Below, piece by piece: positions 161 to 6,075 of a stretch of 6,075 nt of DNA (its first letter is position 1; every line of letters begins with the position of its first letter). The translations under genes and the position numbers were made by a program. The stretch lies in contig CAMWHW010000066.1 in assembly GCA_947174175.1 (NCBI GenBank), positions 1 through 6,075 on the forward strand, read 5' to 3'. The notes under the pieces are model-generated. The model was not told where the DNA came from, made no database searches, and was given only the letters and a program-made list of their open reading frames with translations. This DNA comes from an uncultured Clostridia bacterium (GTDB taxonomy: Bacteria; Bacillota; Clostridia; Christensenellales; Borkfalkiaceae).

Positions 161-193
161 TAAAAAAACACCAAAGCCTTTAAGCTTTGGTGT
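161..193 (-). terminator. Intrinsic terminator after murF, inside the ddl leader
   Basis: On the minus strand the arm ACACCAAAGC (193-184) pairs perfectly with GCTTTGGTGT (177-168) around a six-base loop. It is followed at once by TTTTTTTA (168-161), a good intrinsic terminator tract. The plus strand has no T-run after the stem, so it acts only on minus-strand transcripts. It begins 27 bases after the murF stop codon and ends just before the ddl ribosome binding site, so it should mark the end of the tsaE-murF operon. Any read-through would carry ddl. Confidence 0.85.
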
Positions 194-219: not shown

Positions 220-1824
220 TCAGTTGTAGATCTCGGGCAAGTCGTTCAAAAACAAAACGGTATCGCCCTTTTGAATTATATCCTTTATTACGTCCTGCGC
301 CGCCGCAAGCGAAGCAACCTGCGTAAGCTTTTCCTGTTCGCCGCCCGCGTCCAGATAACCCTGCTTAACCGCACCGACCAGCGTTTCGCCGACGAGTATG
401 ACGTGGTCCAGTCCGACCAGCTCTCCGCCCAGCGCCATATTTTCGCTCTCTTCCAGAATACCCAGTTCGACCAGTCCGGGAGTAACGACAATCTTTTTGC
501 CGCCGAACGAGCGCAGAACTTCGACCGCAGCCTTTGCGCCGACAACGTTGGAATTATAGCCGTCGTCCAGAATATTAACGCCGTTGCTTTCGATAAGCTG
601 CAATCTGTGCTCGACAAATTCAAGCTCCGAAATAGCCTCCGCAATATCGTCCGCGGCAACGCCCAGAGCGTAAGCAGCCTGCGCGCACAGCCCTATATTG
701 TTTGCGCAGTGCGCACCCAGAAGCTTGGTTTTTACACGGCGCTTATCTTTGCCGAGAGTGAGCGTAAACTCCGTGCCCGTGCAGTCTGCAACGACTTCGG
801 AAACGCAATCGCACGCGGCTTTATCCCCATCGATATCCTTGAACATTTCGAAACAGTCCGCCGCAATAAAGCAGGTCTTTTTACTGCCCGAAATAATTTC
901 GCCCTTGGTCTTTACGACGTTTTCAATGGTCTTAAAGCTTTCCAGGTGCTGGGGGCAAATGCCAGTAATCAGCGAGTAGTCGGGACTGCACAGTCTGCAC
1001 AGCTCGGCAATATCCCCTTGTCTGCGCGCGCCCATTTCGGCGATAAAAATATCGTAGTCGGCAAGGTTTGCGCCGTTTACCGTCCTAGCAATGCCGAGCG
1101 GCGTGTTGAACGACGACGGGGTGGACAGCACTCTGTACTTTTTGGACAGCAGCGCAAGTAACACGTTTTTGGCGCTCGTCTTGCCGAAACTGCCCGTAAT
1201 GCCCACGACGGTTATTTCCGCCGCCGCAAGCTTTGCCCTCGCCTTCTTTACGTAGGAATTATTTATGGGCGCTTCCCATATCAGCGTGATAAAGTTTGCA
1301 AGACAGATTATGGGAAGTATTGCAAGCGGGAACACGGCAAGCGCGCAGTATTTAAGAGTTGCGAACAGTCTTGCGCCCCACGCGTATTCCGCAAAGTTTA
1401 AAAGCGTGACGGCAAGATAGACGAGTATTGCGTACACAAGCCACAGCGTTACGAACAGTCTTTTGAATCGAGGCGTAAGCGTTGCGTTGCCCTTTATTGT
1501 GCGGCGCGCCTCGGCAAACAGATATAGCACGAAGAAAATGAGATACGCCGCAAGCCCGATGACCGCCGACCAGTGCGCGCCCGCGAACCCGAAGCACAGC
1601 GATATGACCGCGCAGGCAAGCACGGTTGCAAGCGCAAGCAGGCAAAAGCGCGCCTGCGTTAAATTGCTTTTGCGGCGCGACCAGCTTAAAAGCTTTGCGC
1701 CCTTATAGCCGAAGCCCTGCAAAATGCCGAGCGGCTTGAAGCTTATTACGCTTAAAAAGCACGCAAAGACGAGCGCAATTAAAACGCACTCCAAAGTTGT
1801 CTGCCAATCTATAAATATCCACAT
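220..1824 (-). CDS. murF: Membrane-anchored MurF-type Mur ligase
   Basis: ATP-dependent Mur ligase, most likely adding D-Ala-D-Ala to UDP-MurNAc-tripeptide in peptidoglycan synthesis; 534 residues. The central ATPase domain has the P-loop GITGSFGKTS (208-217), SFNTPLGIARTV (238-249), EMGARRQGDIAEL (263-275), and PQHLESF followed by VVKTKGEI; K305 or K307 there is the expected carbamylated lysine. GAHCANN follows at 370-376. The C-terminal domain has EHRLQ (405-409) and DDGYNSN (420-426), as in MurF. The usual N-terminal UDP-binding domain is missing. In its place residues 1-190 hold about five hydrophobic segments (roughly 11-29, 60-80, 84-103, 124-144, 160-184). I chose ATG 1824 because the upstream in-frame GTG at 1833 lies inside the Shine-Dalgarno AAAGGTG. 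It is the last gene before the terminator, with ddl next. A lipid-linked substrate, as for MurT, is an alternative. Confidence 0.87.
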   Translation of the reverse strand: MWIFIDWQTTLECVLIALVFACFLSVISFKPLGILQGFGYKGAKLLSWSRRKSNLTQARFCLLALATVLACAVISLCFGFAGAHWSAVIGLAAYLIFFVLYLFAEARRTIKGNATLTPRFKRLFVTLWLVYAILVYLAVTLLNFAEYAWGARLFATLKYCALAVFPLAILPIICLANFITLIWEAPINNSYVKKARAKLAAAEITVVGITGSFGKTSAKNVLLALLSKKYRVLSTPSSFNTPLGIARTVNGANLADYDIFIAEMGARRQGDIAELCRLCSPDYSLITGICPQHLESFKTIENVVKTKGEIISGSKKTCFIAADCFEMFKDIDGDKAACDCVSEVVADCTGTEFTLTLGKDKRRVKTKLLGAHCANNIGLCAQAAYALGVAADDIAEAISELEFVEHRLQLIESNGVNILDDGYNSNVVGAKAAVEVLRSFGGKKIVVTPGLVELGILEESENMALGGELVGLDHVILVGETLVGAVKQGYLDAGGEQEKLTQVASLAAAQDVIKDIIQKGDTVLFLNDLPEIYN

Positions 1825-1830
1825 AATAAG

Positions 1831-1837
1831 CACCTTT
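1831..1837 (-). promoter_or_regulatory. Shine-Dalgarno site that decides the murF start
   Basis: AAAGGTG (1837-1831), six bases before ATG 1824. It overlaps the stop codon of the hydrolase gene (1836-1838), which suggests translational coupling. The GTG at 1833-1831 is part of this site and is therefore unlikely to be the start codon. Confidence 0.75.
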
Positions 1838-2591: not shown

Positions 2592-3035
2592 TTACTCGCG
2601 ACCGATTACCTTCTGCATCACCAGGCAGTCCTCTCCGTCCGAATAGTACCTGGTCCGCGCGTAAACGCCTACGAACCCGCACGAGAGATACAGCCGCATT
2701 GCAACCGAGTTGGATACGCGGACTTCAAGAAAAATTTTCTCCGCGCCCCTCTCCTTTGCGTCGGCTATAAGCCCGTTTATAATCGCCTTGCCCACGCCGC
2801 TGTTTCTGTACTCCTCGGCAACCAGAACGTTTTCAAGGTCGCAGCTCTCGCACGCGGTGCAGGTGCAGCCGTAGCCTATCACCTCGCCGTCCTCCTCCGC
2901 AACCAGCATACAGTACGCGGGGTTTTCGAACGCGGAAGCAATGGTGCCGTAGCTCCAACTCTCGCCCTTGAAACATTCCTTTTCCAGTTCGGAAACGCTC
3001 AATATATCTTCGTACTTACACTTGCGTACCGTCAT
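2592..3035 (-). CDS. rimI: Ribosomal-protein-S18-alanine N-acetyltransferase (RimI-type GNAT)
   Basis: GNAT acetyltransferase of 147 residues, the usual RimI length; RimI transfers acetyl from acetyl-CoA to the N-terminal alanine of ribosomal protein S18. The acetyl-CoA loop is seen in VLVAEEYRNSGVGKAII (70-86), with RNSGVG as the Q/RxxGxG motif. LEVRVSN (103-109) supplies Glu104, and Tyr116 lies in MRLYLSCGF; these align with Glu103 and Tyr115, the proposed base and acid of Salmonella RimI. The tail RTRYYSDGEDCLVMQK is also RimI-like. ATG 3035 overlaps the tsaB stop in an ATGA, so translation is probably coupled, and no strong ribosome site precedes it. A longer reading from 3119 would run into tsaB and is rejected. 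The neighbours tsaE and tsaB support RimI over another GNAT. Strand four carries an odd C-x-C-x2-C-x2-C (57-65). Confidence 0.9.
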   Translation of the reverse strand: MTVRKCKYEDILSVSELEKECFKGESWSYGTIASAFENPAYCMLVAEEDGEVIGYGCTCTACESCDLENVLVAEEYRNSGVGKAIINGLIADAKERGAEKIFLEVRVSNSVAMRLYLSCGFVGVYARTRYYSDGEDCLVMQKVIGRE

Positions 3036-3652
3036 ACCAAACCAAGGCGCGCCGCGCGCTCCTCCTCCGCCTGAGGCTTTTTGACGTACAGCGCTGTAAT
3101 GTCGCAGTCGTCCGCACACACCGCTTCAACGGCGGTGCAAAGACAGTCCTTAGCCTCCAATTTCGTATACTTGGGCAGGGGCAGCTCCTCGAAGCCGTAT
3201 ACGGGGCGCCCCTTTTCGATAAGCTTTTCGCGGGGCATAAAGCAGGGTTGCAGGTTGCAGACGCCGTGCGCGTTGTAACCGCAGACGTAGTAATTTCCGT
3301 GAGCCGCGTCAACGGCAACCAGATAATCGCAATCGCTGTTGACATTATATGAGATAAGCTCGAACGCGGTTACACCCACCGCCCGCTTGCCGAGCGCGGT
3401 CGCATACCCCTTTATGCACGATACGCCTATCCTTATGCCCGTAAACGAACCGGGGCCCGTAACCGCGGCAAAAAAATCACACTCCGCGGGGGTAAGACCT
3501 GCCTTATCCAACGCCTTGTCGATTTCGTCCATAAGCACTACCGAGTGGTTCATCGCGCAGTCGGCAAGGTGGCTGACCACCCTGTTTTCGCCCTTGCACG
3601 CAACCACCGTGAGATAGCGCGAGGACGTGTCCACCGCCAGATAGTTACTCAC
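3032..3652 (-). CDS. tsaB: tRNA threonylcarbamoyladenosine biosynthesis protein TsaB
   Basis: TsaB is a catalytically inactive ASKHA-fold paralogue of TsaD; it binds TsaD, and with TsaE they transfer threonylcarbamoyl from its AMP ester to A37 of ANN-decoding tRNAs. It has 206 residues, somewhat shorter than the roughly 230 of E. coli and B. subtilis. The diagnostic parts are LAVDTSS (5-11), MNHSVVLM (34-41), AVTGPGSFTGIRIGVSCIKG (63-82) and the C-terminal LYVKKPQAEE (188-197). I chose GTG 3652, preceded by AGGGAGA with a six-base spacer; TTG 3658 stands directly after that site and is too close. The start overlaps the tsaE stop by eight bases and the stop overlaps the rimI start, so the three genes are probably translated together. 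Twelve cysteines in 206 residues is high. tsaD is not in this cluster. Confidence 0.94.
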   Translation of the reverse strand: MSNYLAVDTSSRYLTVVACKGENRVVSHLADCAMNHSVVLMDEIDKALDKAGLTPAECDFFAAVTGPGSFTGIRIGVSCIKGYATALGKRAVGVTAFELISYNVNSDCDYLVAVDAAHGNYYVCGYNAHGVCNLQPCFMPREKLIEKGRPVYGFEELPLPKYTKLEAKDCLCTAVEAVCADDCDITALYVKKPQAEEERAARLGLV

Positions 3653-4049
3653 AGACAATCTCCCTGTTGGAAGGGCTTATCTTTCTGATAGTCACCTTTT
3701 TGCAGTTTTCGGGAAGCACGTCCGCAATGTTTTCCGACCACTCGATAACGCACACGCCCGTGCCCTGGAAATAGTCCGTAAGCCCCAGCCTCTCCGCTTC
3801 CGCGCCGTTTTTAAGGCGGTAGCAATCGTAGTGGTAAAGCTTTCCGTCGTAGTCGTTCATATAGGCGTAGGTGGGACTTAAAATTTCGTCCTTGATTCCC
3901 AGCCCCTGCGCAATACCTTTGCAGAACGTGGTCTTGCCCGCGCCCAGTCCGCCTTCCAGCAGAACGACGTCGCCGCCGCTGAGCGTAGCCGCATATTTCT
4001 TTGCAAACTCAATGGTAGCCTGCTCGCTACCCGTTAAATAAATAGCCAT
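3645..4049 (-). CDS. tsaE: tRNA threonylcarbamoyladenosine biosynthesis ATPase TsaE
   Basis: TsaE is the P-loop ATPase that works with TsaB and TsaD to make t6A37 in tRNA. The protein has 134 residues, close to the usual 150. Visible motifs are the Walker A GGLGAGKTT (33-41), SPTYAYMNDY (58-67), HYDCYRL (73-79), which is the HxDxYRL of the family, and VIEWSENIADVLPE (101-114). ATG 4049 is the only reasonable start: an in-frame TAA lies four codons upstream and the next methionine (Met64) is past the Walker A. No Shine-Dalgarno site precedes the ATG. Instead a consensus -10 ends nine bases upstream, so the predicted transcript starts at or next to the ATG (leaderless). The start codon also lies in one arm of a 13-bp inverted repeat. 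It is the first gene of the tsaE-tsaB-rimI-hydrolase-murF operon. Confidence 0.94.
   Translation of the reverse strand: MAIYLTGSEQATIEFAKKYAATLSGGDVVLLEGGLGAGKTTFCKGIAQGLGIKDEILSPTYAYMNDYDGKLYHYDCYRLKNGAEAERLGLTDYFQGTGVCVIEWSENIADVLPENCKKVTIRKISPSNREIVCE
3659..3665 (-). promoter_or_regulatory. Shine-Dalgarno site that decides the tsaB start
   Basis: AGGGAGA on the minus strand within the last codons of tsaE. It is six bases from GTG 3652 and directly adjacent to TTG 3658, so it favours the GTG. Confidence 0.65.
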
Positions 4050-4077
4050 ACGGGTACATTATACACCCGTACGGCTA
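4043..4077 (-). terminator. 13-bp inverted repeat overlapping the tsaE start; possible terminator or operator
   Basis: Minus-strand arms TAGCCGTACGGGT (4077-4065) and ACCCGTATGGCTA (4055-4043) are complementary at 12 of 13 positions around a nine-base loop (4064-4056). The one mismatch becomes a G-U pair in minus-strand RNA, so that RNA could form a continuous 13-bp stem; in plus-strand RNA it would be A-C. TTTATTTAAC follows, a modest U-tract, which lets the stem serve as a terminator for the accessory gene at 4115. The loop holds the -10 box and one arm contains the tsaE ATG (4049). As DNA it could equally be a symmetrical operator centred on the -10. Confidence 0.6.
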
Positions 4078-4087
4078 AGTTTGGCAA
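4058..4087 (-). promoter_or_regulatory. Promoter of the tsaE-murF operon
   Basis: The -35 is TTGCCA (4087-4082, five of six consensus), the spacer 18 bases, and the -10 a perfect TATAAT (4063-4058). The region just upstream (about 4108-4090) is almost pure A/T, like an UP element. The expected start is near 4051-4049, on or next to the tsaE ATG. It is the best match to a housekeeping sigma promoter that I found in the window. Confidence 0.72.
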
Positions 4088-4114: not shown

Positions 4115-4753
4115 TTATTCAGCCCAGAGCGCCATATCTATAAATTTCATAGGCGAATACTTAACCAAAGTTTTTCCTTCATATTCTGCCTGCACTGCCT
4201 GTATATCTACCTTATAGTCACATGCAAAGTTTAATATACTATACAGCCCTTTTTCTGAACAAACCCCAGTGTACTTCAACGCGCGTAAGTTTTTAACTAT
4301 GTAAGTATCGTATGCGTGAATACACCCAAGCGTAGCAAGCATAATTTTACATATTACAGTGTGCTTATGTTTATAATCTGTCCCTGCAAATATAGCGTCA
4401 TCTAATTCTTTTTTTAACTTTAATACTGATTGTACATATTTATCTTTATTAAAGTCAGCGGCAAAAATATCTATATCGATTAACCAAGAATATTCATCTT
4501 TGCACACGACCTCAACAGCTTTATAAAGATATTTATAATCTTTTTTCATTAAAATACCTGTACGGCAAACCATACCCCAGCTGGCAAGAAACGTGTAAAG
4601 ATTTAACGCAAGATCGTCAATTATTTTCTCGTTAAGCCTGTTTCTGTTTTCCAAAAATAATTTATGACAGTAATCATACGAACGATATCTTGAATGTTCG
4701 TCCCTTAAATAACCGTCCATAAATTTTTTTACGTTTGCTTTAAAATTCAACAT
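4115..4753 (-). CDS. Uncharacterised 212-residue protein
   Basis: I do not recognise a named family. The protein looks soluble, without signal peptide or membrane segment, and is rich in Lys, Tyr and Asp. Notable blocks are LALNLYTFLASWGMVCRTGILMKK (48-71, shown in part: LASWGM at 56-61), KIMLATLGCIHAYDTYIV (136-153) and the end YSPMKFIDMALW (199-210). I loosely recall unannotated proteins with similar SWGM, LGC-PAYD and PMKLIDM blocks in accessory regions, but cannot verify this. Start ATG 4753 has GAGGTG seven bases upstream, a strong site. It is AT-rich (16 of 60 G+C at 4381-4440 by hand count), unlike the genes to its left. It follows the surface-repeat gene by 61 bases with no terminator between, so the two are probably co-transcribed, and the hairpin at 4043-4077 would end that transcript. 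Confidence 0.75.
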   Translation of the reverse strand: MLNFKANVKKFMDGYLRDEHSRYRSYDYCHKLFLENRNRLNEKIIDDLALNLYTFLASWGMVCRTGILMKKDYKYLYKAVEVVCKDEYSWLIDIDIFAADFNKDKYVQSVLKLKKELDDAIFAGTDYKHKHTVICKIMLATLGCIHAYDTYIVKNLRALKYTGVCSEKGLYSILNFACDYKVDIQAVQAEYEGKTLVKYSPMKFIDMALWAE

Positions 4754-4814: not shown

Positions 4815-6075
4815 TTAATCTAACACATACCAACTGAAGAACCAACCTTTTGAACTATGTTTATGACTATAAGAAGAATTTATGGCGTAATCTGCGCAAT
4901 ATTTTTTAATATTACTGGGTGTAATACGAATATCGTTCAAAGATTCCCAAGACTTATCCGTCGGATTTATATCATACTCAATATTAACACGATATTCAGT
5001 CATCGTAAAAGAATATTCGATATTAGCTAAACTATTGCATCCTGCAAATGCCGTTGCGTATACATTGCTAACGCCATTTCCCAACTTAACCGTCTTTAAG
5101 CTTGAACAGCCGTTAAACACGTAACTTTCTACTGTACCGATTTTATCGTTCAACTCAACGTATTTAAGATTTTTCAGATTTTCAAATTGTCTTTCATTTA
5201 GATTTTTAATATTATCGTGAATTATTATATTTTCAATATTTTTGGGACAATATAAAATGTTTTTAAAATCTTTGCTATAAAGTATCCCTTCAAAACTCGA
5301 ATACAGAGAACTACCGCTTTCAACGTTTATCTTTTCCAGCTTTAATGCTGAATTTAAAATAGTGATGTTTGATAACTGCGCATATTCAGGAATAGTTATT
5401 TCTTTAATCTGTGTATCTAATATACCCGTGATTATACAATTGCTATTATTATCATAGTAGAAATTAAAGTCCCTCAATTCCTGATAGCGCTCGAATTTTG
5501 CCGTAATCGATATATTATTTACTAAGTTGAATTTATAATTAAGTTTTGAGGTTATAAGTTCGTCGTCTTCATACCAGCCCAAAAACGTATACCCAAGGTT
5601 AGTCTGACAATTTAAAAAAATTTCAGTACCGTAATCGTAAGTATCAGAATTAGTACAAGTTAAAATGCCGCCTGCCGAAACGTTTGAATCTACCGAAAAA
5701 TCGTAGTGGTTAATATTCCAACGCGCCGTTAACGTTTTATTTTCGACATATTGCCAAATTCCGTCGGTCATTTTTGTTTCGCCGTCGTACCAACCGATAA
5801 ATGTATAACCCGTTCTGCTTACCGTGGGCAAAGTAAAGCTTAGGTCGTAAGTAACTTGTTGAGTATTTTCAGGCAACTCATCGCCGCCGTTAACGTCAAA
5901 ACTTATTCTATACTTATTCGCCAACCACGAAGCGGTTATAGTTTCGTTTTTCAGAATAGGTTTAAGGAAATCGTAACTCCACCCTGCAAACGTGTATCCC
6001 GTGCGGCTTGTCTGCTTAAACTGTGCAAATCCGTCCTCTTCAACTTGCTGAGCCGCAACTGCTGTGCCGCCCGCA
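4815..6075 (-). CDS. InlB-repeat / BspA-type leucine-rich-repeat surface protein, C-terminal part
   Basis: The reading frame is open to the right edge, so the start and any signal peptide are outside; 419 residues are visible. The first part is three InlB B-repeat-like modules. The end of one carries SRTGYTFAGW (about 1-50), a complete one runs from YRISFDVNGG to LTARW (about 55-119), and a divergent one has YDYGTEIFL, GYTFLGWYEDDEL and ITAKFE (about 123-195). BspA-type LRR_5 repeats follow (about 203-355), with SSFEGILYSKDFKNILYCP and the clear FNGCSSLKTVKL...AFAGCNSLANIEY. The protein ends in a polar tail, WFFSWYVLD, without LPxTG or a hydrophobic anchor. Such proteins are usually exported and bind host or neighbour surfaces; any anchoring domain must be N-terminal. 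The TTG at 5924 is inside the repeats and is not the start. The LRR part is very AT-rich (9 of 60 G+C at 5221-5280). Confidence 0.88.
   Translation of the reverse strand, partial: AGGTAVAAQQVEEDGFAQFKQTSRTGYTFAGWSYDFLKPILKNETITASWLANKYRISFDVNGGDELPENTQQVTYDLSFTLPTVSRTGYTFIGWYDGETKMTDGIWQYVENKTLTARWNINHYDFSVDSNVSAGGILTCTNSDTYDYGTEIFLNCQTNLGYTFLGWYEDDELITSKLNYKFNLVNNISITAKFERYQELRDFNFYYDNNSNCIITGILDTQIKEITIPEYAQLSNITILNSALKLEKINVESGSSLYSSFEGILYSKDFKNILYCPKNIENIIIHDNIKNLNERQFENLKNLKYVELNDKIGTVESYVFNGCSSLKTVKLGNGVSNVYATAFAGCNSLANIEYSFTMTEYRVNIEYDINPTDKSWESLNDIRITPSNIKKYCADYAINSSYSHKHSSKGWFFSWYVLD
5745..6035 (-). repeat. Tandem InlB-type repeat modules (protein-level)
   Basis: Successive SRTGYTF-GW blocks at about 5994-6008 and 5800-5830, and a more diverged NLGYTFLGWY at about 5574-5598, show tandem module duplication. 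The copies are clear in protein but have drifted at DNA level, so recent recombination between them is not evident. Confidence 0.6.

Follow-up and report, generated by a model that had tools for sequence, protein, structure and literature searches.

A conserved RNA hairpin enclosing the predicted tsaE promoter and the start codon, a candidate self-exempting terminator in a family of gut Clostridia

In the window, by which we mean the whole 6,075-nucleotide stretch of DNA analyzed here (an uncultured Clostridia bacterium of the Borkfalkiaceae, contig CAMWHW010000066.1), tsaE is the first gene of a unit on the minus strand, and only 65 bases of that strand separate it from a co-directional gene upstream. 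A 35-base element lies directly before and into tsaE and brings together a terminator-like hairpin, a predicted promoter and a start codon. This raises the question of what such an element would do to RNA that arrives from upstream, and to the RNA of tsaE itself. The genes and the other hairpin of the window are as follows.

4115 to 4753, minus strand: upstream gene for a protein of 212 aa, co-directional with tsaE; its RNA would meet the element
3645 to 4049, minus strand: tsaE, first gene of the unit, with the start codon ATG at 4047 to 4049
3032 to 3658, minus strand: tsaB, after tsaE
2592 to about 3034, minus strand: rimI, after tsaB
1836 to 2516 or longer, minus strand: alpha/beta hydrolase gene, after rimI
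220 to 1833, minus strand: murF-like gene, its model score lying below the curated cut-off
168 to 193, minus strand: terminator-like hairpin 3' of the murF-like gene

The 212-aa protein had no match in Pfam or NCBIfam and, among the rows clustered by upstream gene, its gene was common to the window and locus L033 only. Also upstream of tsaE, positions 4815 to 6074 encode a protein with InlB-like (List_Bact_rpt) and BspA-type leucine-rich repeats; in the place of these two genes, most relatives have a gene for an ECF-transporter S component. Elsewhere in the same genome, L002:1491-1542 (G000:C119) shows 79% identity to 52 bases within tsaE, near the nucleotide-binding region.

The element is composed of the following parts, read in the direction of tsaE.

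4082 to 4087, minus strand: predicted -35 hexamer TTGCCA (promoter match)
4065 to 4077, minus strand: 5' arm of the hairpin, within the promoter spacer (repeat, fold, covariation)
4058 to 4063, minus strand: predicted -10 hexamer TATAAT, in the loop (4056 to 4064)
4051, minus strand: predicted transcription start, the 7th base past the -10 and 2 bases before the ATG
4043 to 4055, minus strand: 3' arm of the hairpin, with the tsaE start codon (repeat, fold, covariation)
4033 to 4042, minus strand: U-rich stretch TTTATTTAAC after the stem, in tsaE codons 3 to 6

The earlier note on this DNA had described an inverted repeat with TATAAT in its loop, the ATG in one arm, a U-rich stretch behind it and a mismatch that becomes G-U in RNA, and each of these observations was confirmed. 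The two arms are complementary at 12 of 13 positions (92%) and stand 9 bases apart, and the loop reads GTATAATGT on the minus strand. The single mismatch, 4048 with 4072, is a G-U pair in minus-strand RNA, and its U belongs to the tsaE AUG. The promoter, TTGCCA-18-TATAAT, has 11 of 12 matches and scored highest among the 17 promoters listed for the window (shuffles, 8.0, sd 3.0). The element also ranked first among the 16 terminator-like sites listed in the window, where membership of the list alone means little because shuffles give 9.2 sites (sd 3.3). The RNA from 4090 to 4030 folded at -23 kcal/mol (z = -4.04), and none of 200 shuffles was equally stable. Comparison of the window with the covariance models of Rfam 15 gave no match at E up to 1, and hence no known RNA family. 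Here and in all rows described below, start sites were placed by distance from the -10 and are predicted.

We next turn to the relatives. Of 61 genomes, 60 had TsaE, and so did 197 of the 201 genomes examined within the family; the tsaE operon was found in 24 of the 25 genera of one search and in 18 of 18 of another. The relatives from the named-genome scan were the best 80 of 249; named records among the relatives are Candidatus Coproplasma, Borkfalkia and Scatosoma. After 45 duplicates were dropped, the 174 tsaE starts located gave 129 rows distinct at -40 to +60, the window included. A hairpin row was defined by at least 13 pairs in a register search over 17 positions, together with an exact TATAAT. 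The pair count in this search was bimodal over the 129 rows, and 54 of these 129 distinct tsaE upstream regions carried the hairpin with the -10 and the ATG in the same arrangement. It is this comparison that decides that the arrangement is real. Of the 129 rows, 50 had a distance of 8 from TATAAT to ATG and 22 a distance of 6; a separate promoter/fold classification gave 56 hairpin-class rows, 52 of which had TTGCAA or TTGCCA as the -35. The other leaderless-type promoters of a relative mostly had a -35 of TTGACT, TTGATT or TTGACA, unlike that of tsaE. In the hairpin rows, an A-run can pair with the U-tract. Other families of the order contributed 20 tsaE upstream regions; a TATAAT 6 to 8 bases before the ATG was found in 5 of them, and these 5 folded at only -2.0 to -3.5 kcal/mol. 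A tree of TsaE and TsaB covered 91 rows of the 129: 43 with the hairpin, 16 with the promoter alone and 32 with neither. In it the classes were interleaved (L106 adjoins L102, for example, and L073 adjoins L053); many supports being weak, the tree gives no claimable direction of hairpin loss versus gain.

The earlier note had proposed that compensatory changes be sought in the two arms, and the arms proved to be both conserved and covarying. In a MAFFT alignment of the 54 hairpin rows (A1), with a stem of 11 pairs taken from RNAalifold, the TATAAT, for which the rows had been selected, and the ATG were invariant. Pairing was found in 93.9% of cells, versus at most 37.9% with a slid partner; this high percentage is expected because the rows were chosen for pairing, and the stronger evidence of covariation is given by the double changes and by the permutation of 5' arms. 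Changes on both sides were present in 7 of the 11 pairs and amounted to 66 cells, compared with a shuffled mean of 21.7 (0 of 500 shuffles as high) and at most 17 in slid registers. They included pairs with tsaE codons 2 and 3 (U-A, C-G, A-U in one case and C-G, U-A in the other) as well as the inner pair (G-C, C-G). When the 5' arms were permuted among the 54 rows, the 691 Watson-Crick pairs observed fell to a mean of 581 and a maximum of 607. Since the 5' strand lies upstream of the predicted start of tsaE's own RNA, the covariation means selection on read-through RNA or on termination, and it is this covariation of the 5' strand that makes transcriptional insulation testable from sequence alone.

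An RNA hairpin and a DNA site can be told apart by the kind of departure from Watson-Crick pairing. Departures were counted as transition-type departures over the sum of Watson-Crick pairs and such departures, other mismatches (29 in the first count) being set aside. In the first count, for which the rows had been chosen with G-U counted as a pair, G-U made up 93 of 384 and A-C 9 of 235. The values were 47 of 201 versus 4 of 121 in 28 thinned rows, 72 of 333 versus 6 of 225 when rows and register were chosen by Watson-Crick pairs alone, and 107 of 442 versus 23 of 313 in 81 promoter rows taken with no pairing threshold. In addition, 53 of the 54 rows had the more stable fold on the sense strand (means, -22.3 versus -15.5). 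The excess of G-U over A-C therefore indicates a sense-strand RNA hairpin and neither a DNA operator nor an RNA of the opposite strand. Collectively, position, conservation, covariation and strand bias show that the element is a conserved RNA element.

As to its function, we consider it probable that the conserved hairpin is an intrinsic terminator and a start-codon lock for upstream RNA and that tsaE's own RNA would be exempt: with the predicted promoter of tsaE enclosed by the hairpin, transcripts from it would start past the 5' arm. Polymerase coming from upstream would copy both arms, upon which the hairpin would form and the U-tract in codons 3 to 5 would release the RNA. In any RNA that escaped, the AUG would be paired and a Shine-Dalgarno sequence absent, and such RNA, to judge from the predicted folds, would hardly be translated. 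RNA from the promoter in the loop is predicted to start 0 to 3 bases before the AUG; hairpin formation would be impossible in it, and it would be translated as a leaderless mRNA. With rather less assurance, we favor the broader description of the element as a self-exempting terminator, in which 35 bases would end transcription of the upstream gene, serve the next gene as its promoter and supply its leaderless start codon, with the U-tract in codons 3 to 5, kept by compensatory change across a family of gut Clostridia and set in a second register in a sister lineage. Termination, the translational block and the leaderless start are what we infer. If this is true, a single RNA hairpin judges transcripts by their starting point, neighboring genes are separated without a spacer, and RNA selection acts on the opening codons of a core gene for tRNA modification; the element would also be a small part that is testable in common laboratory strains.

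Co-directional upstream genes, the separate terminators of promoter rows that have no hairpin, and the richness of the U-tract all point to termination of upstream RNA. By tblastn, 101 of the 129 rows had, no more than 2 kb upstream and in the same orientation, a relative of the ECF-transporter S component (a family name resting on NCBIfam matches below the curated cut-offs), and the nearest upstream gene was 57 to 89 bases away in hairpin rows (quartiles). Divergent upstream genes appeared to accompany the hairpin in L034, L035, L066, L079, L081 and L157; these cases were rejected, the long frames of the opposite strand looking antisense to the transporter gene, and in each of the six tblastn placed the transporter relative in the orientation of tsaE. 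A separate terminator was found in 5 of 55 hairpin rows versus 11 of 18 promoter rows without the hairpin. When the classes were formed ignoring the U-tract, the values were 5 of 54 versus 10 of 18 (p 1e-4; here and below the rows are kin and not independent, and p-values serve as guides); the non-hairpin rows of this recount include L065 and L097, both with a bulged hairpin, and it omits L031, which has 8 of 11 pairs plus a separate terminator. With classes chosen ignoring the U-tract positions, the 8 bases after the stem held 6.4 T on average with the hairpin versus 4.8 without it (55 versus 25 rows, p 8e-7). A stable stem followed by such a T-rich tract is what an intrinsic terminator consists of, and the richness arises although those bases are tsaE codons. 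In the 11 rows in which tsaE lies within -10 to 12 bases of the upstream gene, the hairpin was found in none, and 10 of them had no exact TATAAT 5 to 9 bases before the ATG.

Several observations count against the terminator reading. The difference in T was small over the final four of those eight bases (2.96 versus 2.44). Seven promoter rows at 38 to 62 bases from the upstream gene had no separate terminator; one of them, L097, has the bulged hairpin, and L104, L139, L142, L144, L171 and L175 have neither. The site scored as a terminator in L100 is poor to the eye, and 5 hairpin rows also bear another candidate terminator. In L033, from a near-identical organism (TsaE, 99% identity), both arms are changed and the hairpin is weakened to -11.3 kcal/mol, which counts against the terminator and the lock alike; codon 2 is altered as well (L033:812-874), and the locus offers a natural variant for comparison. 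On balance, the hairpin is likely to act as an intrinsic terminator for upstream RNA.

A second effect, on translation, was suggested by the predicted folds. In predicted read-through RNA, 48 of the 54 rows had every base of the AUG paired, and no row left it fully free. In the predicted own RNA it was fully free in 33 rows; that it was not fully free in the other 21 of 54 counts against this reading. The hairpin begins 23 to 34 bases before the predicted start in the 56 hairpin-class rows, and the own RNA is by prediction without the 5' strand, its predicted leader having 0 bases in 9 rows, 2 in 40 and 3 in 5. A Shine-Dalgarno-like string was present in 1 of 54 hairpin rows, and the rows otherwise show the sequence trait of leaderless genes, a TA-like -10 some 10 bp ahead of the start and no Shine-Dalgarno sequence. 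Given an AUG that is paired in read-through RNA and free in own RNA, and so few Shine-Dalgarno-like strings, it is likely that little protein would be made from read-through RNA and that own RNA would be leaderless, in addition to termination.

The earlier note had supposed that the stem hides the AUG and perhaps terminates, so insulating the operon from accessory genes. The pairing of the AUG is borne out by prediction, termination gains from the separate terminators and the U-tract difference described above, and insulation from upstream RNA is likely; the word accessory was too narrow, given the transporter relative found upstream in most rows.

It seems unlikely that the hairpin is a translation lock only, as in phage T4 gene e, hiding the AUG of read-through RNA while termination is incidental. 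The fully paired AUG in 48 of the 54 predicted read-through RNAs would suit such a lock, as would the finding that the weaker G-U pair was the commonest partner type of the AUG's U (42 of 54 rows), since a lock need not be maximal. However, a lock alone predicts neither the higher T content after the stem where the hairpin is present nor the separate terminators where it is missing.

A different order of parts was seen in 24 Borkfalkia-type rows (Candidatus Borkfalkia and kin; for example L042:2920-3010, L092 and L096), in which the promoter precedes the terminator-like hairpin. Their -35 is TTGCAA in 23 rows and TTGCCA in 1, and their 5' arm begins 4 to 9 bases before the predicted start, so that the start falls inside the 5' arm. 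Beginning the RNA at the predicted start reduced the fold from between -12.5 and -25.4 to between -5.2 and -14.6 kcal/mol. The ATG or other start codon follows 34 to 101 bases after the -10, and a Shine-Dalgarno-like string was present in 15 of the 24 rows. The arrangement resembles the first in principle, set in another register: as the predicted start lies within the 5' arm of the terminator, own transcripts would keep a shortened hairpin only. The remaining inner hairpin, followed by U, might act on own transcripts too, which makes an attenuator possible in these rows. For the element as a whole we regard it as very improbable that it is a regulated terminator, letting upstream RNA pass into tsaE under some condition set by a protein, by ribosomes on the upstream gene or by a ligand. 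The inner hairpin that the Borkfalkia-type own RNA is predicted to keep would favor this, but the window had no Rfam match, and the upstream genes differ among the hairpin rows.

Against these alternatives we retain the terminator and lock that spare tsaE's own RNA. The earlier note had also allowed for a repressor, and a DNA operator might be expected to have further copies in the genome. A covariance model of this element only was run on 41 genomes under stricter filters, 130 first-look candidates being scored per genome. It recovered 17 tsaE sites at E 4e-7 or lower and 33 further matches at E 0.0026 to 0.96, none of them at tsaE. Seven of these 33 were inspected and rejected: L246, L235 and L239 are ordinary terminators, and L247, L238, L240 and L236 were by eye not this kind of element. 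In the own genome (67% complete), the tsaE site scored E 1.6e-10 and the next two matches 0.119 and 0.574. The search for further copies that the earlier note had in mind thus gave no second strong-scoring copy in the own genome or in the relatives among the 130 first-look candidates per genome. A symmetrical repressor site centered on the -10 is, in our judgment, even less probable than the attenuator. The repeat is indeed palindromic with the -10 at its center, but a palindromic operator would keep its symmetry equally on both strands, whereas here the departures are G-U and rarely A-C, the letters of the half-sites vary with compensation, the sense strand gives the stronger fold, and further strong copies were absent from the genomes as searched. 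Of the overall reading given in the earlier note, the part that incoming RNA is terminated or silenced and own RNA spared is supported by the conserved and covarying arms, and the repressor site is disfavored. That the constraints of promoter and codons mimic a hairpin by chance is scarcely credible: the TATAAT, the ATG and the following GC are conserved for reasons of their own, and 25 rows have the promoter without the hairpin class, but the covariation and permutation controls and the fold of the window (z -4.04) contradict it.

A hairpin spared by an internal promoter has precedents. In IS10, IS50 and IS200, transcripts entering the element fold so that the start of the transposase is hidden, and the promoter of the element itself avoids the fold; unlike these insertion sequences, tsaE is a core gene and not a mobile element. 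Like an intrinsic (Rho-independent) terminator, the element has a G+C-containing stem followed directly by a T-rich stretch, and some off-target matches of the model were ordinary terminators; unlike an ordinary one, it holds the -10, the start codon and the first codons of the next gene. The closest known logic appears to be that of phage T4 gene e and I-TevI. According to two reviews (PMC3014915, PMC2988022), genes e, soc, 49 and I-TevI (also segB and Aeh1 mobE) have an inhibitory hairpin with a late promoter in its 5'-strand part; long transcripts hide the translation start, and transcripts from the internal late promoter, which are without the 5' strand, are free. As in T4 gene e and I-TevI so described, the predicted folds here sequester the start in RNA begun upstream, and own transcripts, by their predicted start, are without the 5' strand. 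Unlike those T4 hairpins, the tsaE element is also terminator-like, has a predicted leaderless start and belongs to a conserved core cellular gene; it has an ordinary -35 (TTG...) and -10 (TATAAT) in place of a late promoter and temporal switch.

In a survey of leaderless genes (PMC3160421), a TA-like signal lies about 10 bp before the start, and those of Firmicutes are mainly found in Lactobacillales and Mycoplasma. The tsaE element resembles them in its TATAAT 6 to 9 bases before the ATG and in the absence of a Shine-Dalgarno-like string from 53 of 54 hairpin rows, and it differs from the definition given there in having a hairpin over the start. The t6A operon of Mycobacterium tuberculosis (PMC5335608) shares with this locus the t6A genes, internal promoters and a terminator-like hairpin; that hairpin, TtsaD, follows tsaD, has no U-tract and stands apart from promoters and start codons, and leaderless architecture is absent from the operon according to that paper. 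The combination of terminator, internal promoter and leaderless start was not found in the titles, abstract openings and passages of the mainly open literature covered, including PMC8450116, PMC4245973 and PMC3890552.

The rarity of the arrangement within a genome was assessed on a 656-kb contig of a relative (G179:C1, loci L178 to L210; Clostridia lineage). A general rule for the genome was considered and rejected: 27 of 843 terminator-like sites had a -10-like hexamer, and 9 of these 27 also had a loose -35. Only 3 of the 843 had an exact TATAAT, and among them only that of tsaE had a -35. Among ORFs of at least 50 codons with an exact TATAAT 5 to 10 bases before the ATG, tsaE was the only one to reach at least 14 of 17 pairs (16; next, 13). 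On the same contig, 30 of 534 long ORFs had a leaderless-type promoter, with an excess of TATAAT 6 to 9 bases before the ATG; this excess is tempered by the rate for all ATG (68 of 18092), which is only mildly above that of other trinucleotides such as TGA (62 of 18965). A second candidate was noticed at about 10197-10241 of L191 on the plus strand (G179:C1 near 270241), where TTGACT-17-TAAAAT lies within a hairpin of -24.8 kcal/mol, followed by TTTTAATGAA.
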